Source: Arenicola marina (lineage: Eukaryota; Annelida; Polychaeta; Arenicolidae). From it: DNA of 64,000 nucleotides. The notes below the pieces were generated by a model. That model did no database searches. It saw nothing but the letters and a program-made list of their open reading frames with translations, and was not told where the DNA came from. The stretch lies in contig OZ025255.1 in NCBI GenBank assembly GCA_964019135.1, positions 25,583,708-25,647,707 on the forward strand. The letters run 5' to 3'. Within the stretch, counting starts at the first letter, position 1; every line of letters begins with the position of its first letter. The position numbers were made by a program, and so were the translations under genes. Of this stretch, positions 1 through 56,205 are shown in pieces.

Positions 1-75
1 ATGATGGGTAAGTATATACGTTGTTAGACCAAAGATAACATGATGGATAAGTGTATACGTTGCTAGACCAAGGAT
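1..75 (+). repeat. Edge of the 36-bp minisatellite upstream of gene A
   Basis: Two units are visible, each with ATGATGG(G/A)TAAGT and CGTTG(T/C)TAGACCAA. They are the reverse complement of the large array at 31175-32947. The window therefore opens inside the mirror-image array of the left arm, upstream of gene A and in the same orientation to the gene as the array upstream of gene B. Confidence 0.85.
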
Positions 76-459
76 CTGATTGATTCCATTTGGCACGATG
101 GTTCAGTACGTTGTTTGTCTTGGTTAACCTGATGATAACACAATGAAACTAAATATGTTCATACATATGAGTCATATATGACGCATAGAAACCGAAACAT
201 AAGATGAAATAAGTATATTAGGGGAGTACGGCGGCGTATTGGTATTACCACACTTTCCGAAGTCAAAACTTCGCGTTGGTGAAGTCAAAATTTCGTGATG
301 TGAAGTCGATATTTCGTAACCGAAATTCGAAATTTCGCGTTTGTGAAGGCGAAATGTCGTGACCGGAAGACGAAATTTCGCGTTGGTGAAGTCGAAATTT
401 CGCGTTCGTGAAGTCGAAATTTCGAGTTCACCAAGTTCAAAATTTTGCGTTCATGAAGT

Positions 460-636
460 CCTTGGGATAACCCCCTACTCTTTGCGAACAAGGACATGCG
501 ATCTTTATCCTGCGACAAACAGAGACATGACACAGCAGGGTTCGAACCACCCACCAACGTGCCGCTAGGGTATCAGGTGGCCAGAGCACACAATGCAAGC
601 ACTCTAACCCATTAAGCTATCGGGGCGGCCCTACCA
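460..636 (-). mobile_element. tRNA-derived SINE-like segment, copy 1
   Basis: On the minus strand there is an A-box-like TAGCTTAATGG near 613-623 and a B box GGTTCGAACCC near 539-549. The spacing is longer than in a true tRNA gene. A similar segment at about 39417-39600 shares the tail words for TCCTTGTTC(G/A)CAAAGAGTAG and the CGCAGGATAAA region. This repeated tRNA-headed structure is typical of a SINE. It lies inside the TACGGC transposon, so either it jumped there later or it is part of the element. Confidence 0.6.
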
Positions 637-639
637 AGA

Positions 640-1880
640 TGGACTCTTTGATTTTTCAGAATTTTTTTACTCCGCCCTTTAGGCTTCCAAAAATACGTGA
701 TACATTTTGCAACAGCTTGCCATGGCACTAGCTGAAGCAATTTGTTATTTGCCGTAGTGGGTAAAAAATCCCAACGGATTGGCGACAAAAAAAATATTTC
801 CCGGGGGGGGGGAATGGCCCCTCCGCCCCTCTTGAAAGTTAAATGTTCGGTTTCTAAACCATACTCAGTCTCACGCGCTGGGCCACGTCACTGACTGTTA
901 CTCAGTTCGAAAAATATCAGGGGCGTTACCATGCACAACTTTGTGTTGCACGTGCGCATCAGCAATGACGAAAGTTTACACACTATCATTTTGACCAACA
1001 TATACAACAGCAAGGAACTCGATCGCTAATTTATGAAACGTTATGAAGGCACATATGCTCTATACACAAGTATCATGCCTCAAGATAAATCCCCCCTCAA
1101 CCCGCGTGCCATTTGATCGTCACGATAGGGGTGGACGGCGAGGCGGAGAAGGGATGATACTAGCAGTAGCTGAACCCGAACCCAGGACCACCAAGTCACA
1201 GAAACAAAAACCTTGACAAATTGACGAGAACTAGTAAGGATCTCTTTCGCTTGTCCTTGTTCAGGAACATGACATATCGCTCTTGCACTGTCTTGGTAAG
1301 TATCGACCACGAGAATGAGGCCAACACAGAGCACAGCAATAAATAATCTGAACTACAGATCACGAAAAAAAATGTCACTCAGTGTTCACTGTCAAGGTGC
1401 TACGCCCCCTCACAATTCATATAGCGACTCACATGTCGCCAGCCGGTATCCGAAATGTCCCTGAAGGTACTACAAACTGTTAGAGAAGGAATAATATATC
1501 TTGAGTGATGTTCTATATTTCCAGTTCACGGTGAAATGAAAAACCTGAACTCGAGGAACGGAAATACGCCCCCCCCCCCCACCACCACCTCATATGTTCA
1601 CCAAGATTCTGTTAAGTCCTTAATTTCAACGTATTACTAACTACGAATAATTCTAAGTTCCGATTTCAACCAGCTTTCAACCAATATAAGAGTAGTATGT
1701 GCTTGTCGATCGTGATCAATCGCCCTTGAAAACATGAAAAGTTCTGCAAACATCGCATATAGATCTATCTGAGCATACAATTTCATTGAAGATGCAACCA
1801 TGTTAACGATATATGCGGAGTGACCCCTTGCGTGTGACTCACCCCCCTTATTGACGCATCAAGCGCCTGTGTTAAATACG
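640..1880. other. Interior of TACGGC element copy 1, no gene seen
   Basis: Non-coding sequence with short homopolymer runs (G near 804-811, C near 1567-1579). The only open frames are short, unsupported and without recognisable domains. Confidence 0.6.
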
Positions 1881-2271
1881 AAATACCATTCTATATTTAG
1901 CCTCCCGGTCACGGAATTTCGACTTCTGATCACGAAATTTCATCAACGCCAAATTTCAACTTCACGAACGCCAAATTTTGACTTTACGAACGCGGAGTTT
2001 CGACTTCATGAACGCGAAATTTCGCCTTCACCAACGCGAACTTTCGACTTCATGACTTCACGTGAATTTCGACTTCACGAACGCTGCCGTAGGGGAGCCC
2101 CAATCGCATTGTAAACGCAGATAAGTTAGAAAACTTGAATTATTTGACCAATCATAGGCATTAATAACACGACTTGCGCAGTAAATCTGCTTAACGTAGC
2201 CATGTTAGAACACTCATTCTTCTAAATAAGCGGTAGAACTGAACACTATTTGACAATACTCCCCTTTTTAC

Positions 2272-5200
2272 ATGTCCCGAACAGCCACAGGGAGTGAGTT
2301 ACAGCAACATATTGCGAACGACATGTTGGCAGTGGAGATGCCCCATTTGTCTGTACGGGTGTACCAAGGGGACATCACCAAGCAACACACGGACGTCATC
2401 GTCAGTAGCTGTGGACAAGCCATTGGCTCCCGCACGAGTAAGTCACTTGCCTCAAGCCCTTGGCAACAGTATGACTAAGTTACTTGTCTCAAGCCATGGA
2501 CATCAGTATGATTAAGTCACTTGTCTCAAGCCATTGACACCAGTATGAGCACGGCACTTGCCTCAAGCCATTGACACAAGAATGATTAAGGTACTTGTCT
2601 TAAATCCTTGAAACCAGCAGGATTAAGTCACTTGTCTCAAGCAATTGACCCCAATATAAGTACACCAGAATGAATTTCACTAACTCGCAAATTCACAACA
2701 GCATGTCATCGTCTATCTACCTTCATGCACAGATCCTCAGGGTCAGACCAGCGCCGCCATGAACAAGGCCGGGGGACCCAAATATGTCGCTGAATGCAAT
2801 AAGATTGGTAAGATGTTTAACCTGTCCGTAGAATTCTCTTTTTATCCATTGTCAGTGTCATTAGCATTTAAAATCGTGTATAGAGGAACGACGGAGGGAG
2901 GACATGTATATAATGGCGGCTCCTTGTGAAAGCCGGAAAAAGTAGTGCGACTCACACAATATGCAGGCTGACACGCTTTACGCCAAATGCGGAGCTTTTG
3001 TCTGCCACCAGATCGTGAATGACATCCACTAGAGTATGCTCACTCATTAGGCACATTAGAAACTACGCCGTTCCGCTTTACGGTACCCATTCTTTACCCT
3101 TTATTTACGATAACAAATGCATTCGTCTACTTGGATCCGTTAAATTATATTATGCATACATTATGTTCTTGTGTCCATGCATTACGAATCTGTATGTGTA
3201 TATAACTACTAAGTACTACCTTCCTTTAATATACCCACCACAATCAAGTATAGTCTGACCAAAAATCCGTTTCAGGGACAATTCACAATAATTTGGCGAT
3301 AACTGGGGGAGGAAACATGCGATGCAAGAAGGTTTTTCATCTGGTGATGACCGGGGATACGGCAAGATGGTCTGATCTGATACACCGTACCCTTCGAGAA
3401 GCGGAGACAATGGGGATGACCTCTTTGACCTTCCCAGCTTTTGGAACAGGTGACGACATTCACGTTGTCGGTGTGCTATCGATTGTATATTCAAATATAC
3501 AAGTAGACGAACAGAGAGAACGAACCAGAGGCTTCTTTATATTATTTACACCACTTTCAATTTCTGACACTTGATAAAGCCGAATATATGTATGAGACCT
3601 ATGCTATGCTATGCTATGAGTTCGCCAGAGGAGAGCATTCAATTACCATAATTCGGTATTTAATCTTTATTCAGTTAAATTTTCTTCTTGAACCAGCCAG
3701 TAATCCAATATTGGAGTCAATCTGCTGTCATCAGTATATAAATGCTAGTAGTAACTATATACAACCTTGTTGGACAGGATGCCTTCGTGTGGCGGCTAAA
3801 ACCAGTGCTGGTGCGATGTTCGACGCCATATGCAAGCACGACAACCATGCCAAACCTAGCGTTCTGAAGAACGTATGCATCGTCATTTTCGACGCCCAAA
3901 TGGTTAAACAATTCATAGAAGTGTTCAGAAACAAGGCTCAGGTGGCCAAGTTCCCAGTGCAGAATATCCCAATGCATCCGAAGCCAATGCCTACGACACC
4001 TGATGCTATGGGTTCTGATGGAGCTAAGGCCGACGTGTGGGACAGGCTACGAGGTATGAACGCTACGTGCGACATTGATGATATAGTGTTATCCATTACG
4101 GTTAAGCCAGTGTAATATTGGCGAATTTTAAACCAAAGATTGTAGTCAGAGTTAGTATGTGGTTTCTTGGCCTCACCTCATTCGCCGGTAAAGTCGCTCA
4201 GTTGGTAAGCTGGCTGGACTGCATATCAACAGGTCATGGGTTTGAACCCTGGCAGGGAGCCTCCCTGGCTCACTCACTGTGGTCAGAGTTAGTATATGCT
4301 CCTTGACCTCACCTCATTCGCCGTTGAAATCGCTTGTAATGATTGTATTCTGATTCAAACTGTCACCCTGACAGAACCAACGAGGTGCGTTAGTACTTCC
4401 GTCTCGTAATAACTCGATCCACCCGTATAGCCTCATACACGCACCGGGGCCGTCGTAGCCCAGTTGGTAAGCTGGCTGGACTGCAGGTCAACAGATCATG
4501 GGTTCGAGCCATGGCTCCTGCAACCTGGGGCGAGGAATTGAAAATCAAATAAGTTTCATCACGATGCACGTATCAGTCTGCCGTTAGCAGGAAAGCTTGG
4601 CTGAAAAGATCAGGCCCGGGACATTGAGAAGAAACATATGTGAAGATATAGGGACATCTCCGGTATAATCCACTAACCTACTGATGGCGTGGTTAAGGTG
4701 CCACATCAGCGCATTTAGTTAGAGTATTTAGTTTCGGGCTCAAACTTATGTACCCTTCTTCTGACTGAGCCCCATTCTGCCGGTTGGATTCATCATTCCA
4801 CACGATGCAAATGAAGTTCACAAGACATATACATTCTTTCACGATATGCAAAGCTGGTGGTAAATGTTATACGTACACAAGATGCAAAAGATGTGTTGCT
4901 TATTCGTTCGTGTGCAATTTCCTAAAAAGCCATCACATAAAATGTCCCCTTAAGTTATTCCTTATAATAGATGAACTATATTCATTCTTCCGCAATATGC
5001 AAAAGCGTATTCATATATGCACTCATACTGTACCCATTCCACAATATTCAGGTGCATTGGATCAGATATCAGTGTCACCGGGGGAGACAACAGGGTCTGT
5101 GCGGCGAACCTCCCCTGGTAAGGAGGCGCCGTTCAGGCCGGATACTGTGGAGCTGACTGACCCGATGGCACAGGCCGCTCTCGCTTTCCTGACGGCGGAA

Positions 5201-8200
5201 CACGTGAGTTAATGCTCTCAGCGATTGCTTTTGGGCTGCAAAGTTTTACTTGTGGTGTACGTGCTTTTAGACAGGCGTAAAACACATGACCTTAGAACCA
5301 GTGCGAATCGCCTTGATTGTGGCTACGGCTGCGTGACTCGCACTCGTGGTTGTCAACATTTGAGTGCCGGGTACCGGCTACCTGCGAGGTTTTGCTTGAA
5401 GAATCGAGTGGGTGTGAAAACAATCGTAGACTCGAGGAAGAGTCATTCGCAAGGCAGCGCGTGGCATATGATATTTCAGGTAGTCCGCGCTGTCGATCAG
5501 CTAAACATAGATGCAAGGGGTGACATTGAGAGAGAGAGGAGGGGTCCGTTGGTAATCGGACATCTGCCTTCGCCAGTGATCGCAATGTGCGACGGATTCA
5601 TTCGATTTTGAGTAACTAAAAGCTAGGTTACTCTCGAACTATATTTACGGGTTCAATCGAAGTCAAAGGCATGATGCGTGTTGAGCTTTGACACAGTGTT
5701 ATTTTTTAAATATGTGTCTTCACTTAAATCTTCCATTGTGATTGTACGACAAAAACTGTAAGATTGTAAGCACGCAAAAACATGTATCCCTTGGGCGGGT
5801 GGCATGGCAGAGAATCGCTGGTGGCACCGTTAGCACAGTGGCACCACCGCGGGAATGCACACAATACCAATTCGCGAGTTTCCATTTGTCGTATGCCGGC
5901 GACCCCTTTATTTGTGTTACAAAACATCCGAAGAAGCCGATAACAAGATTCGAATGACACAAGGAATGACATAAACTACACGGCGGTGCTGGCATTCATC
6001 TGGGTAAATAAAGCTTGATCTATCTGTCTTAGCTCTTCAACTTCGTTCGCCTCCAGCCAGGGACTACAAGAAAAATATGAAACAATTGTCTTTCCATACT
6101 GTTTCTCTTTGCCTAACCGTCCGTATATACAATTGAGATAATAACAATGTTATACATATTAAATTCAACGGTTCATTTTGTATCCTGGGACAGTTTTAGA
6201 TTTTACACTTTGTCTGAAGACAGTGAAGGTGAACAGCTATTGAACATTACGCCGATGCGAAAGAGGGTCACCAAAGTATCGACATAGAGCATTAACGAGA
6301 GCGTGTCATTGGTTCTCGATCAGATCCCGTAGTTACCATGCAGGGCTTTAACAATGATTCACGTGATATGTGGATCCGCTACTGCCATGGTGGTCTATGC
6401 CAAGGTCAAACTACAAGGTGACACCAGGTTTTTTTTGCAGTTGAAGGAGCTCAGTAACTTGAATGTGAAGGTGGTAACTGAACAGACCCCTGACGGGAAA
6501 GTGCTGCGGGTATTAGGAGACCCGTTGGAAACCACCACCACCATTGACAAAATCTACGGAATACTTCACAAGGGACACGATGCAGCTCTGAGCGGGGGAC
6601 AGATATGTGAGTGAATAATAAGTATTAATTAACATAGTAAAAAAACATATCGCTTGCAAATTACTTCAAAATTAACAGTAATCCTCTGAATGTCAACTTG
6701 GTTTCGCATTCGTTAATTAATGCATAAGTTAATTAATGAGGTAATTAATATTAGTCCTTTTTATTACCAGATTATTATCGAAGGCAGTTTTTGTCTCTCG
6801 AAAGCCAGTATTCATTACAGTTTGATCGTCAGATACTTTGATGCATATATGCACTATGTATTGCTTTACCTCTTGTTTGTGTTTGAGCCACCGAGATATT
6901 CGCTGCACATGGTTTGGAAAATCGTCTTGAAATCCATGAGATAATCAGGAACGCATTTATCTAGAACGGAAATGTATTGCATAAATAAATACAGCATAAT
7001 CTGCAATCTGCGCCGATACTTAAATATATGCAGGTGGTGCATGTAATTTATCCTCTTGCATGGTGTACAGGGGCGATATGGGCGCTTTATGATTAAAATG
7101 CTTCGCACATTAAATATGCAGGTCTCCGGTTTTAGGTGCAGAATCGGTTGATACAGGTCACGTTTCCCTGCCTTCCAGATATCAAGATGCCTTCCGATTG
7201 GGAAGACATAGCGAGTGGTGAGCCCTGGAGCTCCGTCCCCCTCAAGCCAGCCACTCCAGAATATCAGACGGTGGAACAGAAATTTAAATCCCATGACCTT
7301 TCGGCAGCCACGGTGGTAAACGAACTTTTGAAGTCATGCGACATGCGTTTGTGACATGCGTGGGTATGTGTGCCATGAGTAAATAGATGGCGCCAGACAG
7401 CTTGCCATAGTATAACGAGACGCAACCATATTTAGGCCCACTATGCGAAGTTACATCAGATAGCAAAGCACCACTCTAAAGTAACGGACCAATATTTACA
7501 ACGTTATAGTCCGGGCTATTTTCAACATCACATGCAGATATCAGCGCCCCACTCTGATGTAGCGCACTGAATAATGTACGCCATATATGAAAATGATCTG
7601 TCAAAATAATGAATGACTGACGCTTAAATTTTAGGCACAAATTTGGAGGGTGCAGAATCCTGTATTGTACGAAAAGTTTCAATTCAATAAGATGATAATG
7701 GAGAGACATAACACCGACATCAAAGACAATGAGAGTGTTCTGTACCACGGTACAACACCGGATGCTCTCGAAAACATCAGCTCCCGCGGGTTTAACAGAA
7801 GCTACTGCGGCCAAAATGGTAAATTTAACACACCGGCTTATGCTACACCGGCATTAAACATGCAAAATGTTGTGCTGTTCTAATTAAATAAACTGCATTA
7901 TAAGCATGAAGTGCTGCTATGAACATCTAACATTTGCTTGGGACATTGCAGAATTTGAAGGGGCTATACAAATACATATGTCGGTGAAATAGCATGCCGT
8001 AGGGAGACTAGCGAAGGCGATAAACTTGATATTGACGATGCACAGCGATGCATCGTCCGCCGTTCCGTGATGCCCGATACTTATGACAATGTGCCATTAT
8101 ATTGCAGCCACACAATATGGACGCGGTGTATACTTTGCTGTCAGCGCCCATTACTCAGCCAACCCCAAGTACTCCATGCCCGACGACAATGGCTATCAGT

Positions 8201-8385
8201 ACATGTACCAGTGCCGCGTGCTGACCGGCAGGTACACCAAGGGGCGCCACAGTGACAAGGAGGCCCCCGTGGTGGGCGACGTGACGTATGATTCCGCCGT
8301 GGATGACGTCACAAACCCGCGCATATTTGTGGTCTACATGGACAATCACGCCTACCCGGAGTATCTGATAGCCTTCAAGGTATAA
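2272..8385 (+). CDS. Gene A: macrodomain plus ADP-ribosyltransferase (PARP14/15-like), nine exons, frame broken at exon 4/5
   Basis: Exons, from splice sites and matching phases: 2272-2437, 2733-2807, 3276-3449, 3778 to about 4109, 5052-5203, 6441-6606, 7179-7315, 7635-7818, 8108-8385. Exons 1-4 form one macrodomain (VYQGDIT, AGGPKYVAECNKI, FPAFGTG, IVIFDAQMVKQF) and a Pro/Met hinge. Exons 5 and 6 are a linker and a KH-like segment. Exons 7-9 are the ART domain (PSDWEDI, YHGT, GRGVYFA, AYPEYLIAF). The triad reads His-Tyr-Ile, which by family knowledge means mono-ADP-ribosylation. The exon 4 donor region lacks about 15 nt present in gene B. Splicing there gives phase 0 where exon 5 needs phase 1. 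Read without splicing, exon 4 stops at 4115, giving a macrodomain-only protein of about 250 residues. So gene A is either a pseudogene or a truncated product. The ATG at 2272 is conserved in gene B, but an acceptor CAG lies just after it, so exon 1 could be internal. Confidence 0.8.
2431..2660 (+). repeat. Tandem array repeating the intron 1 splice donor, gene A
   Basis: About six units of roughly 39-40 bp start right at the exon 1 donor. Each unit reads approximately (A/T)AAGT.ACTTG.CTCAAGCC followed by TTGACACCAGTATGA. The first unit contains the used donor CGA/GTAAGT; later units keep weaker versions. The matching array in gene B is at 30440-30580. Confidence 0.75.
4145..4322 (+). repeat. 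tRNA-like insertion bounded by direct repeats, gene A intron 4
   Basis: A 42-bp sequence beginning GTCAGAGTTAGTAT and ending CCTCACCTCATTCGCCG occurs at about 4145-4186 and again at 4279-4322. Between them (4187-4262) is a tRNA-like segment with AGTTGGTAAGCTGG (A-box region) and GGGTTTGAACCC (B box). The mirror site in gene B has one copy of the flank and no tRNA-like segment, so this was gained in the left arm after duplication. Confidence 0.65.
4446..4518 (+). mobile_element. tRNA-Cys-like SINE head, gene A intron 4
   Basis: The 73-nt segment pairs GGGGCCG with TGGCTCC as an acceptor stem using two G-U pairs. It has a perfect T arm (CATGG, loop GTTCGAG, CCATG) and the loop CTGCAGG, which would place anticodon GCA. 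The anticodon stem has two mismatches, and the sequence runs on into a non-tRNA tail. A tRNA-derived SINE or tRNA pseudogene is therefore more likely than a working tRNA-Cys gene. The same insertion is present in gene B (28753-28830), so it predates the palindrome. Confidence 0.6.
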
Positions 8386-8424
8386 AACCCCAAGATATTG
8401 CTTAGCTAGATCTTCTATATCTTC

Positions 8425-8662
8425 AAGCTAGATGTACAACACAATCACGCTTACCCAGATTGTGTTATTTGTTCATTATAACCTTTAAAGCATAAGTACA
8501 ACACAATCACGCTTATCCATAGTGTGTGATTGTTCATTACAACCTTTAAAGTATAAGTACAACACAATCACGCTTACCCAGAGTGTGTTATTTGTTCATT
8601 ATAACCTTTAAGGCATAAGTACAACACAAGCACGCTTATCCAGTGTGTGTTATTGTTCATTA
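8425..8662 (+). repeat. Minisatellite derived from the last ART exon, downstream of gene A (block 1)
   Basis: About four units of roughly 62 bp contain ACACAATCACGCTTACCCA, then ATAACCTTTAAAG.ATAAG. The end of the gene A coding exon reads GACAATCACGCCTACCCGG, then ATAGCCTTCAAGGTATAA, in the same order and at similar spacing. The array therefore looks like an amplified and decayed copy of the last codons plus stop. It continues at 9177-9351 and 9584-9700 after LINE insertions. Confidence 0.8.
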
Positions 8663-8663
8663 C

Positions 8664-9176
8664 AGATAGATAGATAATTTTCGTGTATTATAGTCACTTG
8701 TGAGTTCAATAATACAACATACACGCAACACAAATAACAGAAATATACAGCTCACCCAGCCATCATGGCTTATAAGTGACTTCAAATTGAACAATATAAT
8801 TGAATGGGATCGAACAATATAATCTTCACCATTTGTAATCTCACCCAGTCTAATATTAATATAACATGCAGATAACTATGCTAACAGTGAAAGACAAATG
8901 AAACATATAGAACATATAACTATCACTCAACGATACAACCGATTTTCCTGATATGCCATGCTGCTGATAGGTAAGTTGTCAGAGGCTTCCAACAATATTG
9001 TAACAGATATATAAGTTGATCTTCTTTGTCCAAGAGGTTAGCGGTAGGTTGGACATTTGATGCGTGTTGATACGTTTCTCTGCGTGACCTGTATACATCA
9101 CAAACCCATACAAAATGAACCTCGTTTTCAATTTCTCCCATAGAACAAAAACTACAAATTCGTTCTTCGGGTCGCA
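8664..9176 (-). mobile_element. 5'-truncated LINE 3' end inserted in the minisatellite
   Basis: On the minus strand a frame at about 9180-8923 encodes a C-terminal LINE signature with RICSFCSMGEIENEVHF and a following C...Y..RR, the zinc-knuckle-like region seen at the end of many non-LTR ORF2 proteins. The 3' side (low coordinates) ends in a TATC-type microsatellite (GATA on the plus strand). It interrupts the exon-derived minisatellite. Confidence 0.65.
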
Positions 9177-9351
9177 GTTTAAAGTATAAGTACAAAATCA
9201 CGCTTACCCATAGTGTGTTATTGTTTATTACAATCTTTAAAGTATAAGTACAACACAATCACGCTTATCCAGAGTGTGTTATTGTTCATTACAACCTTTA
9301 AAGTATAAGTACAACACAATCACGCTTACCCAGAGTGTTATTGTTCATTAC
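9177..9351 (+). repeat. Exon-derived minisatellite, block 2
   Basis: Three units with AAGTATAAGTACAACACAATCACGC continue the array of 8425-8662 between two LINE fragments. Confidence 0.75.
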
Positions 9352-9352
<1 letters not shown>

Positions 9353-9404
<52 letters not shown>

Positions 9405-9583
9405 TTTTCATTAATTATAGTCACTTGTGAGTTCAATAATACAACATACACGCAACACAAATAACAGAAATATACAGCTCACCCAGCCATCATGGCTTAT
9501 AAGTGACTTCAAATTGAACAATATAATTGAATGGGATTGAACAATATAATCTTCATCATTTGTAATCTCACTCGGTCTAATAA
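9353..9583 (-). mobile_element. Second copy of the same LINE 3' end with a (GATA)n tail
   Basis: The sequence after the (GATA)13 run at about 9353-9405 is nearly identical to 8690-8860, for example CACCCAGCCATCATGGCTTA in both. It is more strongly 5'-truncated than the copy at 8664. Both ends carry the same tetranucleotide tail, as expected for a LINE family whose 3' end is a microsatellite. Confidence 0.65.
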
Positions 9584-9700
9584 TAATCACGCTTACCCAT
9601 AGTGTTTATTGTTTATTACCTTTAAAGTATAAGTACAACACAATCACGCTTACCACGAATTCATAATTGTTGAGCATAACCTTTAAAGTATAAGTACAGC
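9584..9700 (+). repeat. Exon-derived minisatellite, block 3
   Basis: About two further units of the array seen at 8425-8662, the last ones before unique sequence shared with the right arm. Confidence 0.65.
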
Positions 9701-9871
9701 ACAGTAATAAATATTGACGCCAGATGAACAATTGCTGTTAGACGATGAACTTGTTCGGAAAAGAAAAGAATTAAAGCATGATTTCTACAGGATTATCTTA
9801 CAAGGTGCTCAGGAAAGTTCCCGCCCATAATGGGTAGAGGAAGGAGAAGGAGGCACTTCCTTCTTCACACG

Positions 9872-12800
9872 ACAAAAAAGCAGACATTTTATGGAGAAAA
9901 TATCTGAAAGGACAATTATTTTTTTCGCACGGGACCACTAAACGTTGTGGTGTGGCTATATTTATCCCTGTCAATTATAATATAAAAATGCATAATCAAG
10001 TATGTGACAAAGAAGGACGATATATCATCTTAGATGTAGAGATATGTGGCCGAAGATACACGCTTATGAATGTCTACGCCCCAACAAAAGACTTTCCAAA
10101 AAAACAGATGGCTTTCCTAGAGGAAATATCACAAGCTCTTCAGGAGCATGCAGAAAACTTGATAATTATCGGAGGAGATTTTAATGTTTGTATTAATCCA
10201 GAACTGGACAAAATTGGGGGAAAACAGGAAAAACAGAGCGATTATGCAAAACATATATTAGAATTCATGGAGACGTTTGATCTCCAAGACATCTGGAGAG
10301 TCCGTAACCCTGATACTAGGCGTTTCACGAGTCAAAATACAAAATCTGGCCTTGTACATTCCAGATTAGATTTTTTACTCACCTCAGCGAATCTGGGCTA
10401 TGATATAAGAAAAACTGATATAAACTATGGGCCACGCTGTGACCACTCAATCACTGACATCCAAGTTATAAATAAACACCAGTCCCTAAGGGGAGGGGGG
10501 TTTTGGAAATTTAACTCATCGCTGTTAAAAGACACCGAATATGTGAAAATGATAAAAACGTGCCTGGACGATTCTCTACATAAGTATTCAACGCTCGATG
10601 ATAAAGGGGTGTTGTGGGACCTTATTAAATGCGAAATGAGAGGTCGGAGTATAAGTTACGCTTCATACAAAGCAAAACAACGACGTCAATATGAGCAAGA
10701 GCTGAAAGAAAAACTAGAAACCTTACAAGTTCAAAGTATAACAGATGATGCGATACACGGCGTCTACGAACGTGCCAAAACAGAGTACGATGAAATTCAA
10801 AGCCTGAAGGCTCAAGGTGCACTAGTGAGAGCTAGGTCACTGGAAATTGCTGAAAACGAGAAGAATACTAAATACTTCCTTAGCTTAGAGAAACATAGAA
10901 GCGCAAAAAAAAATATAACAACACTCATAGGTCCTAATGAGAAGCCAATTATCGACCCAACAGAGATTCTATCTGCTGAACAAACCTTCTACTCACAATT
11001 ATACTCGCAAGGGCCCGTAATGGAAGAAAACGATCCGGTAATGGATACATTCCTGGATGAAGCTATTAGTAAATTAGGCCCACAATCGACGCACCTCTGT
11101 GACCAAGAATTAACATTAAAAGAATGTACTCAAGCCCTAGCTCAAATGAAAAACAACAAGGCCCCCGGAAGCGACGGTTTTTCCACCGAATTTTATAAAT
11201 TCTTCTGGCGAGATATTGGACATCTCGTACATAACAGCTTTATATATGCAGCAGAAAATAAGCATCTGAGCATTGAACAAAGGCGCGGTGTCTTAACGCT
11301 TCTCCCGAAAGCTGACAAAGACCTTCGTTATTTGACATCGTGGAGACCGCTAAGCCTACTAAACACTGACTATAAAATTCTAACGAAAGCACTTGCCAAT
11401 AGGATGCAAGATGTCGTCAACGACCTAGTTAATGTAGACCAATGCGGGTACATCAGAGGTCGCTACATCGGCGAAAATGTAAGAACTATCGCAGATATCT
11501 TTGAATACTGTAATATGAACAACACTCAAGGTTACATAGCACTTCTTGATTTCGAAAAAGCGTTTGATACCATTTCTTGGCAGTATTTACACAAGGTACT
11601 AAAACATATGAAATTCGGCCCATATTATTGACAATGGATTGACATAATATATACAGACATCACCAGCTGTTGCATAAATAACGGTCACTCAACCGCATTT
11701 ATCCCTATTACGCGAGGCATCAGACATGGGTGTCCAATAAGCGCCTTACTTTTCGTTCTTGTTGTAGAAACATTTGCAACAAGGATTCGCAGCGACCCCA
11801 ACGTACATGGTATAACAGTGTGTGAAGCAGTGTTTAAAATATCACAACTAGCAGATGATGCCACATTGTTTCTGAAGAATGCAGAATCAATATCTAGGGC
11901 ACTTAATATATTAGAACAGTTCGCGTTATGCTCAGGGCTAAAGCTCAACAAAAACAAAACATTCGTGGTTCCTTTACATCCAAACTGTAGATTAGACACT
12001 ATACACGGCATAGAGGTTAAATCTGGAAGACAGATTATCTAAATTTAAAGCTGTACTCACCACCTGGTCTGCTCGCCGACTATCCCAAAAAGGTAAAATA
12101 ACCATATTAAAAAGTCTGGCACTCCCGCTGTTGACCTATGCTACCGCTGTCATTCACGTTCCCGAGAGCTTTATCAAAAAGGTCAAAAGCGAAATAGCAG
12201 ATTTTGTGTGGAATGGCAAACGCCCCAAAGTGAAATATTCCACAGTGATATCAGACATACCAAATGGGGGTCTGAAAATGCCCTGTTTCAGCTCAATTAT
12301 TGCTAGCCAAAAGGCACTATGGATTAAACGAGTAATATCGGGTAATGAGCTACAAACGAAACAAAGCAAGTTAGCCCTCTGCCTAATTGGTCTTACAACA
12401 CAAGAAATCTCAAGCAAACTCTGCATCACACATATAAAGCCCCCTAAGAGTCTTTTTTATAAACAAGTCATAAACAACTGGTTTGATGTTTTTTCGGTTG
12501 AGCCCGAGGTGGAGAGCGTGAGATATGAAAAACTATGGAATAACAAATACATACTAATTGGAGGAATTCTAAGTAATACCTTTTACCCAACCTACAAGCG
12601 TTGGGCAGATCATGGAATTACACACATACATCAACTGATGGATGAGAACAGGGGCTTTTTAGGAAAAGCTGCTTTAGAAGAAAAATACGGAATTCAAATA
12701 GACGCGCTAAAACTAAACAGCCTCATACACGCTATTCCCAAACAATGGCGTACGTCACTGCGGCGAGAGATACAAACAGCGCACACATACAACAATCAGG

Positions 12801-13656
12801 AACAGCTACAGATAAGAATTAACGGGCAGTACATCAATGTTGATAAAATACAGAATCATCACATATATTGGGAACTTATAACAAAATCACAATCCCCACC
12901 CACTGCTATTGCCACATGGCTGGAAGAGTTCCCATTTCTAACAGAAAACAGTTTCAAAACATACTTTTCAATAGGTAATAGTGCAACACGCAACACTCAG
13001 ATACAAACTTTCCAGTACAAAATCCTCCATAGAATCATACCTTGTAATTACAATCTGGTGAAATGGCACATAAAAGACAATGCAGCCTGCGATGTATGTA
13101 TGGAAACTGACACAATAGAGCACTTTATGTATTACTGCCCCTCTGTCAAAAAGATCTGGCAAAATATTGAACAATGGATTACAACCTTATACAATGTTCA
13201 TGTGAGTCTATCAATAGTAGACGTCTTGTGTGGTATTTCTGGTGATAAAGGATCTATTGTACTGAGTATAAATTTCATTGTGGTAATGGCTAAATGGTAC
13301 ATCTACAAAAGTAGATTATCGGAGAGTAAGCTGTTAAATTTCGAATTATGTAAATATTTCATCAAGAAACAGGTGCAAATGGAGCATCATGCTGACATCC
13401 TTACAGGAAAATCATCCAGATATATTGCATTGTATGAGAAAATATAATCTTGTAATGTAATTATATAATTTTATATAATATTCCGGCACATATTAATACG
13501 ATATTCGCAGACCTTATTTCAACATTGCCATATTTGAATAATCAATAATTGTTTATGTTATCGGCCTCGACCTATAATTGCATTTCCTATATTTATATAT
13601 GTATGTAGCTCTCGTTGCTTAAGAAATAATAAAAAAAAAAAAAAAAAAAAAAAAAA
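9872..13656 (+). mobile_element. L1/Tx1-like LINE, 5' truncated, with poly(A) tail
   Basis: The element starts abruptly after CTTCACACG, inside the endonuclease domain, and ends in a run of A after AATAATA. Right-arm sequence gives the empty site. There the flank continues with about 22 bp (starting GCTGAGCAAACG) that is missing here, so the insertion deleted target sequence instead of duplicating it. It is absent from the right arm and so is younger than the palindrome. Confidence 0.9.
9874..13447 (+). pseudogene. ORF2 of the L1/Tx1-like LINE: endonuclease and reverse transcriptase, two breaks
   Basis: The frame begins in the apurinic-type endonuclease (FFSHGTTKRCGVAIF, IIGGDFNVCINPELD, RCDHSITDIQV). 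It continues through a linker into the reverse transcriptase (NNKAPGSDGFSTEFYKFFW, SWRPLSLLNTDYKILTKALA, IALLDFEKAFDTISW, GIRHGCPISALLF, LADDATLF in place of YxDD) and a C-terminal domain ending near 13447. A TGA at 11629 interrupts the frame before the catalytic LADD box. A +1 shift lies near 12040, before the WSARRLSQKGKITI segment. With the missing N-terminus this copy cannot make a working protein. By family knowledge it would copy its RNA at the chromosomal nick. Confidence 0.85.
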
Positions 13657-14227
13657 CTGACTGAACATGATGGCGTGATACGTTGCACTCATACGTGTAT
13701 TCTTGATCACTGTCTTGAATATAATCATTTATTCTATACTATAACATGCCGGAATCATATAATTGTTTGTTAGTTATATCGAAGAATTAAATTTTGTAAA
13801 CGTATTAAGCGCGAAGTATATTACAGCATGTGACGGATTAATCAATCAACGAATGTGACTCAGCAGTAAAACAGTTGAAATCCGGCAAAACCCCGGGTCA
13901 GGTGGCTAAAATGGAGAAACGTATAACGTATACAATAATCACAGCTGCGATCTACGCGGAGCTTTAACTATATTGGTTTCAAACTCAAACAAAACGTTGA
14001 TATCATCATCATCATATCATGATGATGACGTCATTTTATATTTAACTGATTACCTTATGCGTGTTCAATAACTCGATGTTCTATAGAGCTGAAATTAACT
14101 TCAAGTCAGAGTTTCTACATCGCTATTCGATAGAGTAGTGAAATATATGTGAGGTTTTATTATCTGTTTTATTGCAGTGTCTAAGTGCAATTGCTTTTGA
14201 AAAAAAAAAATGTAAACCAAATACACC

Positions 14228-14335
14228 CAACAATAACACTTCCCCACAGTACAGTAACCTTCGATCCATTAGTACAACACCGTGTTGCTTCATAGCCTTC
14301 ATAGCCTATCATAGCCTTTAAGCTCTAAGTGCAAC
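14228..14335 (+). repeat. Old, diverged units of the exon-derived minisatellite
   Basis: Words such as CATAGCCTTCA, CATAGCCTTTAAGC and TCTAAGTGCAACC resemble decayed units of the array at 8425-9700. The mirror is at about 17650-17760. A LINE inserted in this stretch on the left arm only. Confidence 0.5.
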
Positions 14336-15402
14336 CTACTTGAGAAAAAATATGCATTCCAGCCTGCCTTTATGGATCTGAAGTGTGGCTTAGCCTCCGA
14401 GACAAGCACTTCGTGCAATTAAAAAAGTTACAAAAATATGCCGCCAAATTGATTCAAGGCTTCCACGTTAGAAACCATGATGAAATTGTACGCTCTACAC
14501 TAGGTTGGTTGACGATTAAATCTCGCGTATTTAAGAATAAAATAATGTTTCTGCATAAGTTATACTCTATGCCAAAATCGTGCATAGCTAAGCAATTGTT
14601 TTTGTCAAGGTTAACTGAATTTATACTATGTAAAGAATTCCGCAAGGAAGGTTTTTTGCCCAACGTATGGACAATTTTAAAATGTTTTAGTTCTACGGAT
14701 TTACTCATGAATTACTTCTACGGTATGGAATACCCTACCAAACAAACGCGGCGTAACACTATCTTCAGCTCTATACGTCAAAACGGGAACATGGAGTATA
14801 TATTGCAAGATTGTCGGCAAAAAATGGCACAGCATTATTTCTAAACGTCCAACCTGCCATATATATAAAAAATTGTATCGTGTTTCACAGAACCATCCCT
14901 CTCACCGACAAAACTTTCTCAATTTAGTTCGAATGCTGACAATACCAGTTACAGACCTCCTTGCTTGCCCTTTTTGTTGTGAAACAGTGTGTAACATTCA
15001 GTGCCATTTTATAATTTACTGCCCAGTACTAATGTGTACACGTTCCAAAATGTGGGTGGACATACTTAGAGTAATCTCCGTACCAGAATTTGCCTTATTG
15101 TTGTCATGCGCAGACACTACACTTTGTGCGTTCCTATTGGGAGCACCATCTCAACTTGTTAGCGATCTAGTGCAAGAAAGCATTATACTGTTTGTTTCGG
15201 AACATTTCGGTCCTTTACTAAGAAATATTAGACAAATGGCATATCATCAGTAACTGAAATTTCAATTTCAATACCTTGGTATGTATATATGTGCTCTCTT
15301 GTTCGTTTCGGTTGAAGCTCTTGAGTCTTAATTTATTCAAATGACCTGTTTGTATACTCCTCACTTTGATGGGAAATAAAGATCAAATAAAAAAAAAAAA
15401 AA
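14336..15402 (+). mobile_element. LINE 3' fragment (jockey/CR1-type) with poly(A)
   Basis: The sequence opens in the late reverse transcriptase region (CLYGSEVWLSLRDKHF, then KLQKYAAKLIQGF). It continues to about 14844, changes frame near 14850, and ends with a second open stretch (about 14873-15253) containing CPFCCETVCNIQCHFIIYCP, a zinc-knuckle-like C-terminus. The tail is GGGAAATAAAGATCAAAT followed by A. The right arm lacks it (17640-17700 is continuous), so it inserted after the duplication. The exact clade is not certain. Confidence 0.75.
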
Positions 15403-15560
15403 TAGTGTCGTCCACCAAAGTAGGATCATGGCCTTTAACGTATAGGTACAACACACAATCGCTTACCCATGATACATCAGAGCCTTCAAGCTATTAGTGT
15501 CACTCTATATTGCTCATCCATTAGAATATCATAGCCTTCAAGACAAAAGTAAAACACATA
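15403..15560 (+). repeat. Diverged exon-derived minisatellite units near the palindrome centre
   Basis: Units with ATAGGTACAACACACAATCGCTTACCC and CCTTCAAGCTATTAG keep the ACAATC..GCTTACCC and CCTTCAAG..ATA words of the ART exon tail. The mirror copy is at 17530-17640. Confidence 0.6.
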
Positions 15561-15815
15561 TTGCTCATGTTCGCCATATTGAATCAGCTTTATTTATTTC
15601 AACGGTTTAGCAACAACGTTTGGTGCAAGTAACGCTTATCCTTGCATATGTTGCATATAGATCTAGTCCGGTAACGGAAATCACCCCAAATCGCTTCATG
15701 TTAAGGACACTCAACGGAACACCTTTCGGAGCGATATATTTCCGTGAGGCCCTGATGGGATAACGGAATATTACGTGAAATAGCTTTCAAGGATTTTGAC
15801 AAGATAATATCATAT

Positions 15816-17240
15816 GATAATAACTCATTTTAACATGTCGCCATTACAATATACCATTAGTTTATAAGTAATATATTGGTGTTGTACTGTGCGGACCGGC
15901 CATGTCACCGCTATCCTCGAGGCTAGCTTTCCATAGCACTCATGCACCATCCAGGAATGCCATTGTGACGTAAGCGTAATTATGATAATGTTGCCGTCAC
16001 TATACCGTCACTATAACAACATGCCTTGGGTTGTCACGGTGACTGGCGTTGTACATTACTGCATGGGTCCGGTAATTGTGATGCGGTTAACCGAACCACG
16101 CATCGATAACGTCCGCATGAATGATTAAATACGTCACAGATTGACTAAACAGGCTTCGAATATGCCTACAAAATAGTATAACGATATTATCTAACAACAA
16201 AATGGAAAAGTAGTCGGCGTATGATAGAGATATACGACCACATTTGATGAACTACTTGACGGTATATACTTTTCTCTGCGCTTCTTATTGTTGCGTAATC
16301 CGTAATACGGGATACAGTCGTTGGTTAACCCTCTCACTGACCTATTTGTGCCTGCCAATGTTTCTACAAAAATACAATATAATGCGTTATTTGAAGCGTC
16401 GGTAGGTTACGGAAGTACGGCAGCGTATTAGGGCCATGTCACCGCACTTTCCGAAGTCGAAATTTCGCGTTTGTGAAGGCAAAATTTCGACTTCACCAAC
16501 GCAAAATTTCGACTTCTGGTCACGAAATTTCGACTTCCGGTGACGAAATTTTGACTTCCGGTGACGAAATTTTGACTTCCGGTCACGAAATTTTGACTTC
16601 CGGTCACGAAATTTCGACTTCCGGTCACGAAATTTTGACTTCACTAACGCGAAATTTTGACTTCACCAACGCGAAATTTCGACTTCGTTAACGCGAAATT
16701 TCGACTTCACCAACGCGAAATTTCGACTTCGTTAACGCGAAATTTCGACTTCATGAACGCGAAATTTCGACTTCGCCAACGCAAAATTTCGACTTCCGGT
16801 CACGAAATTTCGACTTCCGGTCACGAAATTTCGACTTCGCGAACGCGAAATTTTGACTTCACAAACGCGAAATTTCGACTTCAGCAACGCAAAATTTCGA
16901 CTTCCGGTCACGAAATTTCGACTTCCCGTCACGAAATGTGAACTTCCGATCACGAAATTTGGCCTTCACAAACGCGAAATTTCGACTTCCGGTCACGAAA
17001 TATGGACTTCCGATCTCGAAATTTCGACTTCACCAACGCGAAATTTCGACTTCGGAAAGTGCGGTGACATGGCCCTAATACGCTGCCGTAGGTTTCCACG
17101 TGGGGTATCTTCGCCACTACAGAAACACGCTTTGTAAGAAATTTGATGCAGCTACTAATGGAAGCAACCATCAACCAACGTCATTCATTATGTCATTTTA
17201 CGTATGAACATTGACATATAATCTACATTTTTACTTGATC
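15816..17240. other. Palindrome spacer
   Basis: This 1.4-kb stretch has no mirror partner in the window. Positions 15816-16415 hold no recognisable gene. Positions 16416-17090 are a TACGGC-ended transposon. Positions 17091-17240 are again unique. It is the loop between the arms. Confidence 0.75.
16416..17090. mobile_element. TACGGC DNA transposon, copy 2 (compact, near-perfect foldback)
   Basis: Both ends start TACGGCAGCGTATTAGGGCC and stay identical for about 55 bp as inverted repeats, up to the first GAAATTTCGCG. The interior is almost wholly arrays of GAAATTTCG alternating with short spacers (GAAGTC; TGACCGG; GTTGGT). No target duplication is visible (CGGAAG on the left, GGTTTC on the right). 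With no coding sequence, it must depend on a transposase made elsewhere. It lies in the palindrome spacer. Confidence 0.85.
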
Positions 17241-17529: not shown

Positions 17530-17760
17530 TTCTAATGGGTGAGCAATATAGAGTGATACCAATAGCTTGAAGGCTCTGGTGTATCGTGGGTAAGCGATTG
17601 TGTGTGTTGTACCTATACCTTAAAGGCCATGATCCTACTTTGGTGGACGATATTAGCTTGTACTTAGAGCCTAAAGGCTATGATATGCTAATGGTAAGCA
17701 ACATGGTGTTGTACTAATGGATCAAAGGTTATACTGTATTATGGAGAAGTGTTATTGTTG
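17530..17760 (-). repeat. Diverged exon-derived minisatellite units, right arm
   Basis: These are the mirror of 15403-15560 and 14228-14335, here uninterrupted by the LINE. They give the empty site for the LINE at 14336-15402. Confidence 0.6.
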
Positions 17761-18935: not shown

Positions 18936-19469
18936 GTTTGAGTTTGAAATCAAGATAGTTAAAGCTCCGCGTAGATCGCAGCTGTGATGATTGTATACTT
19001 TATACGATTCTCCATTTTAGCCATCTGACCCGGGGTTTTGCCGGATTTCAACTGTTTTACTGCTGAGTCACATTCATTGATTGATTAATCCGTCACATGC
19101 TGTGATATCCTTCGCGCTTGATATGTTTGCAAGATTTAATTCTTCGATATAACTAACAACAATTATATGATTCCGGCATGTTATAGTATAGAATGAATTA
19201 TAATATTCAAGACAGTGATCAAGAATACACGTATGTGTGTAACGTATCACGGTATCATGTTCAGTCAGTTGTTGTCTGCACGTTTGCTCAGCCGTGTGAA
19301 GAATGAAGTGCCTCCTTCTCCTTCCTCTACCCATTGTGGACGTGAACCGACCTGAGCACCTTGTGAGATAATCCTTTGGAAATCATGCTTTAATTCTTCT
19401 CTTTTTCGAAGTTTATAGTCCAACAGCCCCACCAATTGTTCATCTGGCGTCGAGATTTTTTATTGTGCT

Positions 19470-19660
19470 GTACTTCTACCTTAAAGGTTATGATCAACAA
19501 TGATGAATTCTGGGTAAGCGTGATTGTGTTGTACTTATACTTTAAAGGTTATAATGAACAATAACACAGTCTGGGTAAGCGTGATTGTGTTGTACTTATA
19601 CCTTAAAGGTTGTAATGAACAATAACACACTCTGGGTAAGCGTGATTGTGTTGTACACCT
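19470..19660 (-). repeat. Exon-derived minisatellite, right arm (gene B side)
   Basis: About three to four units read on the minus strand ACACAATCACGCTTACCCAGA and AACCTTTAAGGTATAAGTAC, the mirror of the arrays at 8425-9700. In this arm a 4.6-kb insertion separates it from the end of gene B. Confidence 0.75.
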
Positions 19661-19689
19661 AGCTTGAAGATCTAGTAGATCAGTTGAGC

Positions 19690-20788
19690 TGCTTACGGTA
19701 ATCAAAGAAGAAATATGTGACAGTATTACTTTGATAATCAATCAGTGCCTGGCGACAGGGATCTTCCCCGGCCGGTTAAAAGTGGCCAAGGTAATTCCAG
19801 TTTTCAAAAAAGAAGATAACTTCCTGTATGATCATTTTCAAAAGCAAAATCTCTTTAATTGTAGCCTGTATGGCTTCAGAAAAACACACCACTGAACGTG
19901 CCACATTAGAACTGATAGAACCATGCAAAAGCTAGCTGAAGGTAAACATTCCTATTTTATATATATCTGGAGCTTATCCAAGGCATTTGATACATTAAAT
20001 CATAACATCCTATTAAACAAGCTTGACCATGGCGTATCCGGAACTGCTCTAAATCTTCTTAAAAGTTATCTGAACAGTCACAAACAGTACGTTATGATTG
20101 ATAACACAAGATCCGAAGTTATGCCTGTCACACACGGGGTTCATACGCGGTTCCATTCTGGGACCGCTTCGCTTTATTATATATACTATAATAAAATAGC
20201 TTGCAATGTCTTTATATTTATAATTTATAGTATACGGTGATAATACTACACTCTTTAGCACACTTAATATATCAATAACCAGCAAAAACCATGAAGCTAA
20301 AAGCATAAATAACGAATTATCTAAGATAAAAAATAGGTTGAAAGTAAATGATCTGTGCCTGATCACAACGAAAATCAAATATATGGTATTTTACAAGCCG
20401 CAGAAAAAAGTAAATCATCCATAGTTATATATTGACAAGAAGAAGCTAGAATGCGTTGACACATTTGATCTGCTTTAACATTAGATCTGCTTCAACATTA
20501 GATAAACATTTAACATGGCACAGTCACACAAACAATCTGGTTGCAAAATTAAGTAAAGTGGTTGGTATTCTGAAAAGGCTAGGATAGTTCCTGCCCCAAA
20601 ACCTACTGTATACCATACATATGGCCTTGTTTCAGAGTCAGCTATACTAGTGTATACTGGCTTGGGGATATCGAGCAGGATTAAGATCATAACAAAAAGC
20701 AATTATATTGCACATACCGATGCGTTATTTAAATATCTTAAAATACTAAAACTAAGCGATAACATACATTACAACAGCTTAAGTTCTT
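19690..20788 (+). mobile_element. LINE reverse-transcriptase fragment (jockey/CR1-like), left part
   Basis: Degraded reverse-transcriptase motifs appear in order: GIFPGRLKVAKVIPVF, YGFRKTHTTERATLELIE, LSKAFDTLNHNILLNKLDHG, LLKSYLNSHKQYV, then KIKYMVFYKP, WHSHTNNLVAKLSKVVGILK and the start of the C-terminal thumb. Many stops and shifts are present, so this is an old dead copy. The reading is interrupted at 20789 by another transposon and resumes at 22824. Confidence 0.75.
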
Positions 20789-22823
20789 CCCAGCAAACAC
20801 GTAACGTTATGCTAACGTTACCGGAAGGGTATCGTTTCGTTATCGTTATAACTTAACCTTCCAAAAACGTTATGGGAACGTTGAATTGTTTCAGGTTATA
20901 ATTTAGCCTTCCAAAAACGTTCTGCGAACGGTGAATAAAGTTCGTGTTGTAATGCATCTTTCGAAAAACGTTCTGGGAACGGGGAATTACTTTAGGGTTA
21001 GAACGGATCCTTCTAGAAACGATTTTAGGACGTTGAATAATTCTAGATTATCATGTAACCTTCGAAAAACGTTCTGGGAACGGTGAATTATTTTAGGGTT
21101 ATAATGGATCCTTCTAGAAACGTTTTTAGACCGTTGAATAATTTTAGGTTATCATGTAACCTTCCAAAAACGTTATGGGAACGTTGAATAATATCAAGTT
21201 ATAAAACAAATTTTTTCAAAAACGTTCTGGGAACGTTTAATAATTGTAGGTTATGTAGCAACCTTCTAAAAACGTTCTGGGAACGGCGAATTATGTTAGG
21301 CTTATAATGGACAACTTTGCAATTTGTCTCGAGTGCGAAGAAGTCTCCAAGAATGAGCCGTTAGGGTGACGGCAGCGTAGCGCCCTCTAGCGAACGGCTG
21401 TGGTTCTCGCCAGAAACTAGATTGTTTGGGTGATGGTTTGAAAATGGGATGGCGTCCGGATCAGGTTAGCCATTAGGTATCTACGAATTTCCGGAACATC
21501 CGCGACCGACAGGCCTGCACACCAATTCCAACACAGAGAAGGGAAAGCCGACGTTACGTAGAGGTATGTATTTTGTGTACAAGATTCCGATTATGTTATA
21601 TTATCAAGTGTGTACAGTTCGGTCTAATCCAGCCAGCTTTGTCACACATGTTTAACGTGTAAAACCGATTTTAACATCTGCCTATATCGTGTGCTGGCAT
21701 TTAGTCCACTGTGGTGTTTGGTACGGGTTTAAATGTACCCCAGCTATAATCATGATATTGTATGTAAAGTCTGACGGTATCAACAGATTTTAGACCGATT
21801 ATTTACGTGGATAACGCGGATGGAGATCGGGCAGTCCTAATACTCTTATCGTTGTGGTTTATCACTGGTTCTGGGCGGGCGGTCCCTGTGTGTACAGCGG
21901 GCTGGACCGGCCTGTCGAACGGGGCCACCAACGGGTCAAATAACCTTAATGTTGTGGTGTATTACTGTGCGCGGTGTTAGAAAGTTTATAAGCTTACCTA
22001 TGCAGAATTTGCATGCTGTATCGTGTTACTAGTTGAGAACGTAAAGACAGCTGTGGTTAAGTACTTAGGGGGGGGGGGGGGAGGGGGGTTAAACGCCAGG
22101 CCCCAGATTATAAATATATTTAAATCATTTGTGTTGATGTTGTGACGCGCAGACGCTACCTTAGTTCATTAATCTAATGTACGCTTAAACGTATTTTGCA
22201 GAAAGCAGCTACGCACACCAGCTTGACTGTCCTCGACTGAGCAGCAGCGATGACCGGAGCGGCCTCCCACCAACTGTGCAGACCGGAGCCGCGGACCCCA
22301 ACTTGGCAGATGCATTGCTAGTATTGCCAGATCTAGGTTTAATAAAGCATCGAAAAGGAAATGATGTGTTTTTGTCTTTTATACGAACTTTAACAAATCG
22401 TCCCGGGAACGTTATCATTCCGGAAACCATAGCAGAACGTTCGGGGAATGTTAGCAGACCGCTCGAGGAACGTTGTCAGACCGCTCGAGAAACGTTAGCA
22501 GACCGTCCGGAGAACGTTAGCAGACCGTCCGGGGCACGTTAGCAGACCGTTTGGGGAACGTTAGCAGACCGTCCGGGGAACGTTAGTAGACCGTTCGGGG
22601 AACGTTAGCAGACCGTCCGGGGAACGTTAACAGACCGTCCGGGGAACGTTAGCAGACCGTTCGGGGAACGTTAGCAGACCGTCCGGGGAACGCTACCCAT
22701 AACGTTATCTGCTAACCTTCGCAGAACGTCAGGAATACTTTTTGGAACGTTATTTAATAACGTTTTCCTAACTCTCGGCTAACGTTCGCCTAACGTTCCG
22801 CGTACGTTATATTGCTAGCTGGG
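20789..22823. mobile_element. AACGTT-array DNA transposon with CCCAGC ends, nested in the LINE
   Basis: The 5' end is CCCAGCAAACACGTAACGTT and the 3' end, inverted, is CCCAGCTAGCAATATAACGT. The left array (about 20810-21300) repeats a unit of roughly 58 bp around AAAAACGTTCTGGGAACG. The right array (about 22395-22690) repeats a 22-bp unit around AACGTTAGCAGACCGTCCGG. The middle, about 1 kb, has no recognisable protein. The LINE reading continues directly on the far side, which fixes both boundaries. The superfamily is not certain. Confidence 0.75.
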
Positions 22824-23160
22824 TACCACCGATTCAATAATAATAACTTACCCACATATTTCGTGGAACACTTGAGATTTCTCAAAATAAATGACTTACA
22901 CAATCATAATACAAAATAAAAAAGGCACACATTCCTTGTACCGAAAACTAAACACGAATTTAGTGAACTAACGTTAAGACACAGTCTCACGTGTAGCGAA
23001 TTTGCATAGGGAAACTGGCGGAATGATAAGAAATAGCACGGCACATGAGAACTAGCGTAATGGTAGGAAGAAGTAGGACGGTAGGGGGCGCGTGGGTGAG
23101 ATTGGGTAGTAAACATCCGCCAGGGGAGGAAGACGAAAGGAAGCCAGAAAGTTAGAGAAT
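22824..23160 (+). mobile_element. LINE reverse-transcriptase fragment, right part
   Basis: The reading LPTYFVEHLRFLKINDLHNH followed by FLVPKTKHEFSELTLRHS is the usual C-terminal end of this LINE class and continues the frame order of 19690-20788. The 3' boundary is not clear. Confidence 0.6.
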
Positions 23161-23639
23161 TGGGAGATCATCCATTTTGTAGTAAGTATCTTTATGAATA
23201 GTTTATGTATCTTTTTATGCAAGTTATTAAGCAAGTTGCCCCATAAGTATGGAGAGTAATGCGCAGTATTTTGGCCCTATTTTTAATAGCACCTCTTTTC
23301 TCTTTATTCCCTGTGCTTCGCCCGCGCATCTCTTTTCTATATACTTTTATAAGAGGGTCTAGGTCAGAAATATATATGTGGAGCTATATTGCGAGGAATC
23401 AGCAATGGTATATGGCGAATTAACTTGGGAAAAGGAGAAACAGTGTGAGAGATAGATCAGGACAGCAATTAGGCAATGGGAGGATAGCTTGAATTAGGGA
23501 GAGAAGATATATACGGCAGTTGCAGTGATATTTGAACTTGGTATTGGTAGCTCCATGTGATATTGTTATCTGTATATTCACTGAGAGGCTGATGGCATAT
23601 ATATATTCAAGTAGCATGAAGAGATTTATCATAAATTTG

Positions 23640-56200: not shown

Positions 56201-56205
56201 CGTTT

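Follow-up and report, generated by a model that had tools for sequence, protein, structure and literature searches.

The window analysed here is a stretch of 64,000 nucleotides (on contig C8, a label of this analysis; the searched genome comprises 867 Mb) and carries three related genes, A, B and C. The last coding exon of gene A (8107..8385, + strand) encodes the C-terminus of a PARP catalytic domain, as judged from Pfam and from matches to PARP15 and PARP14, and ends in ...NHAYPEYLIAFKV followed by the stop codon. The last coding exons of gene B (24275..24553) and gene C (56206..56484) lie on the - strand. With the last exon alone as query in the domain and structure comparisons, gene A matched PF00644 with an E value of 1.5e-9 (38.1 bits, compared to a cut-off of 26.7), and the best matches among solved structures were PARP15 (9e-23) and PARP14 (4e-22). 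The host gene is, by these matches, a PARP14/15-like mono-ADP-ribosyltransferase with a PARP catalytic domain and a predicted activity. Over the last exon its closest relatives in the genome are B (86% identical) and C (84% identical). The gene A C-terminus reads NHAYPEYLI where PARP15 has NQAYPEYLI, and similar C-terminal ends are present in paralogues on other chromosomes. PARP14/15-like last exons are abundant in the genome, with 59 matches at E up to 0.001 that cluster on a few chromosomes (C1, C18, C19 and others). The mitochondrial contig of this genome (C762, locus L050) uses ATA for Met and AGA for Ser at sites judged to be conserved and has the order nad2, cox1, Asn, cox2, Asp, Tyr, Gly, nad2 and cox2 having been named by inspection; code and gene order both point to an annelid.

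Each of the three genes is associated with a tandem array, and the relation of array to exon is plainest in gene C, where the array runs on straight from the coding exon. The exon ends in ACAATCACGCCTACCCGGAATACATTATAGCCTTCAAGGTATAA and AAACGCC, followed by 19 units of 52 bp (the last is 51) that are in phase with the exon and have identical start and end points (55212..56198, - strand). The exon tail itself (56249-56202) is copy one of the 52-bp repeat. Consistent with this, the span reported by TRF (52-bp x 19.7, 55208-56229) takes in the exon end.

The array beside gene A is more broken. The exon tail that is homologous to the array unit (8342..8385, + strand, matched by the unit profiles described below) is followed by a decayed first unit (8386..8440, +), which has CTTCAAG in common with the exon at a spacing of 48 and in which the unit model matches 8419-8440 only (E 0.13). 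Block one (8441..8664, +) contains three full units of 61-62 bp and one truncated unit, block two (9178..9352, +) two full units and partial units, and the array closes with a final two units (9583..9700, +), the outermost of which pairs with the outermost unit of B. The original prediction had treated 8425-9700 as one run; this did not hold, as the run is broken at two places. The first insert (8665..9177, - strand) contains a (GATA)n run and the 3' end of a 5'-truncated LINE-like element, identified by its translation, and is dispersed in the genome. The second (9353..9582, -) contains (GATA)n and another, shorter copy of the LINE-like tail, 96% identical to the first over 184 nt. In total the A array comprises 7 full units, 57-62 bp in length, as well as truncated units; TRF reported 61-62-bp x 3.8 and x 3.0. 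The motif order that had been predicted, ACAATCACGC.TACCC ... CCTT.AA.G.ATAA, was recovered, apart from minor deviations, in the full units of all three parts (8441-8664, 9178-9352 and 9583-9700). Across the window ACAATCACGCYTACCC occurred 23 times at up to 3 mismatches, the three exons counted (0.71 expected), and CCTTYAARGTATAA 31 times at up to 2 mismatches (2.29 expected), one of these (10728) inside a LINE.

The B array (19467..19670, - strand) consists of three full units of 61 bp and one partial unit (TRF, 61-bp x 3.2). The similar arrays predicted to follow B and C were thus present in both cases, directly adjoining the exon in C, but in B about 4.6 kb away from it, and the intervening stretch (19682..24248) has no counterpart in arm A of the inverted duplication described below. 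The tail of exon B that resembles a unit (24318-24268) includes the first nucleotides of the 3' UTR. AAACAAC follows the stop codon of gene B, and because its ACAAC also closes most units, the unit comprises the exon tail plus the first 3' UTR nucleotides. Full units of A and B are 61-62 bp long (one is 57) and contain 9-10 extra bases in mid-unit. In A, B and C alike the stop codon lies ahead of the array, and neither 52 nor 61 bp is a multiple of 3. By TRF the three arrays consist of head-to-tail units longer than about 6-10 bp, the lower bound for minisatellites, which may have up to ~100 copies and for which there is no agreed definition, as described in PMC6947457.

Gene A and its array lie in one arm (1..16490) of a large inverted duplication, the partner of which is at about 16953-31067. 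Pieces of the two arms (about 1-16490 against 31067-16953) are about 80-97% identical. A LINE at about 9872-13656 is present in arm A only; arm B passes from 19293 to 19270 at the corresponding place. This LINE has endonuclease, RVT_1 and zf-RVT matches, a run of 26 A and broken frames. The centre of the duplication (about 16449-17057) is a 22-bp array with the self-complementary core GAAATTTC, which is also found at 259-460 and 1945-2084. Decayed units were recognised by the unit model in arm A (14230..14335 and 15426..15554, + strand), in arm B (17562..17758, -) and at the outer end of the C array (55077..55180, -), the weakest of these matches having E values up to 0.2.

Unit profiles were built without any exon, from the A/B units (10), the C units (19) or all units (29), and searched against the array-masked window with 60 shuffled windows as a control. 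All three profiles placed the three exon tails on top. The A/B-unit profile scored them at 21.5, 20.8 and 19.9 bits (next match 3.9, best shuffled window 11.4), the C-unit profile at 23.1, 20.7 and 15.3 bits (next match 8.1, best shuffled window 10.6) and the all-unit profile at 29.2, 29.0 and 24.4 bits (next match 6.0, best shuffled window 12.0). With a second exon-free model the exon tails of A, B and C scored 27.9-34.8 bits. The predicted likeness of the units to the exon ends also stood up unit by unit: for 28 of the 29 units none of 500 shuffles of the same unit scored as well. The units, which are short and rich in A+T, have 55-80% identity to the exons, and one of the 29 (Cu16) was equalled by 2 of 500 shuffles, but the exon-free models put exactly the three exon tails first, above the best of the 60 shuffled windows, and the C array is in phase with its exon, so that chance or convergent low-complexity sequence has practically no standing as an explanation. 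At the level of sequence these comparisons confirm homology between the array unit and the end of a PARP14/15-like gene, from its C-terminal codons through the stop and about 7 nt into the 3' UTR.

The direction of copying can be read from genes that have no array. Since NQAYPEYLI occurs in PARP15 and similar ends occur in the paralogues, the coding end predates the array. That the peptide is conserved in PARP15/14 and in array-free paralogues, and that three paralogues on C18 (L012-L014) read AAACAA directly after the stop, argues for copying from gene to array; no exon-like array was found at these three. The central claim of the original prediction, that a coding end with its stop had been copied in tandem past the stop codon, is therefore supported by the exon-free profiles, the per-unit shuffles and the conservation of the peptide in array-free paralogues and in PARP14/15.

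Genome searches with the unit bear on the opposite order of events, in which a mobile or dispersed repeat came first and gave rise to the gene end. A 20-nt unit pattern at 2 mismatches gave 13 matches, all at the locus (reversed-pattern controls 0 and 1), and a C-type pattern at 3 mismatches gave 5, again all at the locus (controls 0 and 0), the best candidates being scored in both. Two further searches with unit DNA each listed 10 matches, all of them at the locus. Unit DNA was found only here in the searches run, in which the best candidates only were scored and distant copies could be missed. Used as a query for contrast, the LINE-like tail yielded 115 candidates; 40 of these were scored matches, the query copy itself among them. 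Another minisatellite of the window, with a 39-bp unit, does recur at several places, as a mobile repeat might; against a mobile origin stand the four unit searches without copies outside the locus, where the LINE-like tail gave 40 of 115, and the conservation of the peptide in PARPs that have no arrays. The unit does not resemble dispersed elements as the unit of a transposon-derived repeat would, its patterns matching the locus only among the best candidates scored. We consider a mobile origin extremely unlikely.

In a survey of the paralogues, 30 of the 59 exon matches had loci in which the exon tail could be compared with the 1.2 kb downstream of it. Three of the 30 loci exceeded z = 6, namely A, C and L016. 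In L016 the match is a single gapped stretch of 57 nt at a distance of over 1 kb, and no array is present. Downstream of B the test gave z -0.8, because the 4.6 kb stretch parts the exon from its array. The exon end of L015 was not recognisable, and in L022, L031, L034-L036 and L038 the frame continues beyond the end of the PARP part, which means that a non-homologous tail was compared there. Within these limits no such array was seen in the 27 other loci (of 30 loci, from 59 matches). The idea that such arrays are a general habit of the gene family was dropped, as only A, C and L016 reached z > 6 among the 30 loci. L012 and L013 have a 31-bp array about 300 bp past the stop, for which no significant match to their own exon ends was scored.

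An array at the end of a gene might be kept for a role in the 3' UTR, in polyadenylation or RNA stability. In gene C an AATAAA lies 73 nt past the stop, within unit 2, and the first AATAAA/ATTAAA of gene A is at +1321, past the array, so the A array could be transcribed. A role of the C array in 3' end formation is thus possible, though putative. Set against this, both the A and the B array have suffered interruption and decay, units of 52 and 61 bp do not preserve the frame, and the B array is about 4.6 kb distant from a gene that has an ATTAAA at +108. Maintenance of the arrays for such a role would appear very unlikely, and we see no sign of a function; the array probably has none.

To place the units relative to the exons, a tree was built from 61 alignment columns, in which 17 of the 28 inner branches were open. 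It contained three clades: the exons (support 97/92), the A/B units (96/88) and the C units (92/83, not starred). The outermost A unit and the outermost B unit were sisters (98/92), and the remaining A and B units were not separated. The A and B arrays are therefore orthologous, and this pairing and mixing makes the A/B array older than the inverted duplication. Units nearest the gene had been expected to group with their own exon if amplification was local and ongoing. No such grouping was seen in the tree, and because the nearest units do not join their own exon, ongoing local amplification from each exon is unsupported. Forcing the C exon end (exC) together with the C units cost 4.5 log units (p-AU 0.10), and forcing exA and exB together with the A/B units cost 6.0 log units (p-AU 0.25). 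In five columns, of which four are substitutions and one is an inserted T, the majority state is common to the A/B and the C units and unlike all three exons.

The original prediction had left it between a process that happened repeatedly and one inherited from the ancestor. Inheritance is favoured by the mixed A and B units, their outermost pair (98/92) and the lack of own-exon grouping; for C against A/B, independence still fits the data (p-AU 0.10 and 0.25). Arrays might then have arisen at least twice, beside C and beside the ancestor of A and B, from similar exon ends. The different unit lengths (52 against 61-62) would be explained in this way, each array forms its own clade, and neither forced tree was rejected. 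On the other hand, the A/B and C units agree in these five columns, in where the unit begins and ends, and in closing with ACAAC. In the best tree, moreover, the exons stay together as a clade of their own (97/92), which exchange between the exons could also produce. Independent origins seem unlikely to us on this balance, and a single origin of the A/B and C arrays appears the better reading.

It does not follow that the founder was the exon now seen in gene A, as had been supposed. When the 44 nt to the stop were scored, 25 of the 29 units were closer to the exon end of C than to that of A (19 of 19 C units and 6 of 10 A/B units), with ties for Au3 and Au4 and lower scores with C for Au2 and Au6. 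The exon end as source of the array is upheld, but the exon that gene A carries today was probably not the founder, since 25 of 29 units score higher with the C exon end. A codon for isoleucine in C is one for leucine in A and B. At this codon the C-type first base is present in all 19 C units and in the outermost A and B units; the remaining 8 A/B units have G in 7 cases and a gap in one. Leucine at this position is found in A, in B and in 21 of the 27 other paralogue tails, those with a visible codon. These two or three positions, which are close to an indel, give hints of a C-type founder. One could picture an array born once beside a C-type gene and carried to the ancestor of A and B by gene exchange, together with part of the last exon. 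This is a possibility that we entertain with considerable doubt. If true, the non-coding units would be a fossil of an exon end now absent from A and B.

Divergence of the exons themselves is also relevant to exchange between the genes. Synonymous divergence between A and C was 0.11 in the last exon (putatively exon 9), compared to 0.50, 0.93 and 0.76 in three other exons. Exon 9 looks to have been homogenised among A, B and C, which alone could make the exon clade of the tree, and the shared array may reflect transfer between genes and not plain descent. As a control, 29 paralogues were compared in 406 pairs, of which 90 had exon 9 pS < 0.2. Among those 90, 38 had pS > 0.35 in the preceding exon, two of them being A-C and B-C; 23 of the 38 pairs involve L020 or L031 and hence are not independent. 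The contrast points to gene conversion within clusters, or to a last exon that changes more slowly there. Array-driven exchange as the cause of the low A-C divergence in exon 9 was dropped, as pairs of array-free paralogues show a like contrast. Exon GC3 gave no clue.

Taken together, we hold it highly probable that a partial tandem duplication of an ancestral exon end founded a local minisatellite, which was then homogenised, interrupted and left to decay. In the ancestor of A, B and C a segment of about 51 bp where the last exon ends (the final 44 nt, stop included, with some 7 nt of 3' UTR) would have been duplicated in tandem past the stop, the left end of the duplication lying within the last exon and the right end a few nucleotides beyond the stop; this seems the likeliest mechanism. 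Because the original stop stayed in place, the protein would have been unchanged and the extra copies would have been non-coding and free to drift. Unequal exchange or slippage would then have expanded them into a minisatellite, the middle of the C array being homogenised with older variants left near the ends. An insertion of 9-10 bp would have given the 61-62 bp variant before the inverted duplication parted A and B. The broken arrays of A and B would be the later outcome of LINE insertions in arm A, of point mutation and, in arm B, of the 4.6 kb stretch. Drift is seen in the units, as the G of the exon CCGG is A in 9 of 10 A/B units and 16 of 19 C units. In the C array, Cu1-3 differ from exC at 13, 14 and 12 positions, Cu17 at 14, Cu18 at 17 and Cu19 at 11, compared to 15-18 for Cu4-Cu16 except Cu9 (13). 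The tendency of the end units to be more exon-like fits a homogenised middle. Distance between C units also grows with their spacing (rho 0.30; 9 of 2000 permutations were as high). We infer that unequal exchange drove both expansion and homogenisation.

Arrays at the ends of genes have been described before. According to PMC1831492, the last exon of the primate SPANX-N genes carries a 39-bp minisatellite at its 3' end in several paralogues and species; the repeats lie past the stop in human N1 and N5 and are in frame and coding in N2 and N3. The present locus is like SPANX-N, as described there, in that several paralogues have an array where the last exon ends, directly in C, beside the exon in A and after about 4.6 kb in B. 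Unlike the in-frame repeats of N2 and N3, here every copy but the first comes after a stop in A, B and C, and the unit length and the gene are different. As an array shared between genes at the end of the last exon is already known from SPANX-N, we would regard the locus as a clean example and not as a new principle. Among the best matches listed in searches of open-licence papers (for example the best 15 of 47,297) no title concerned this array or a minisatellite derived from an exon of a PARP gene.

How minisatellites originate is considered hard to study (PMC3389668). Their birth from unique sequence by slippage or unequal exchange is recounted, after Haber and Louis 1998 and Taylor and Breden 2000, in PMC6947457 and PMC3389668. 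The history proposed here resembles that model, as presented in these sources, in that a short unique stretch was duplicated in tandem and later expanded; it differs in that the source is identifiable as a coding end with its stop. The flanking direct repeats of 5-10 bp that belong to the model were looked for at the locus and were not found as such; by eye, a short ACAA is present at both ends of the copied stretch in exon B. Some minisatellites derive from transposable elements (PMC6947457, PMC3389668). The arrays here are like these, so far as those sources describe them, in being local with a source that can be named, but the source is an exon of the host gene and the LINE merely interrupts the array. 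The founding unit is still in place as the end of an exon, so that phase, homogenisation and decay can be read at three paralogues, and the array is a marker for exchange between duplicated genes. The 39-bp minisatellite unit that recurs in the window is found at 1-75, 31168-32943 and 37633-37741, with up to 45 copies.
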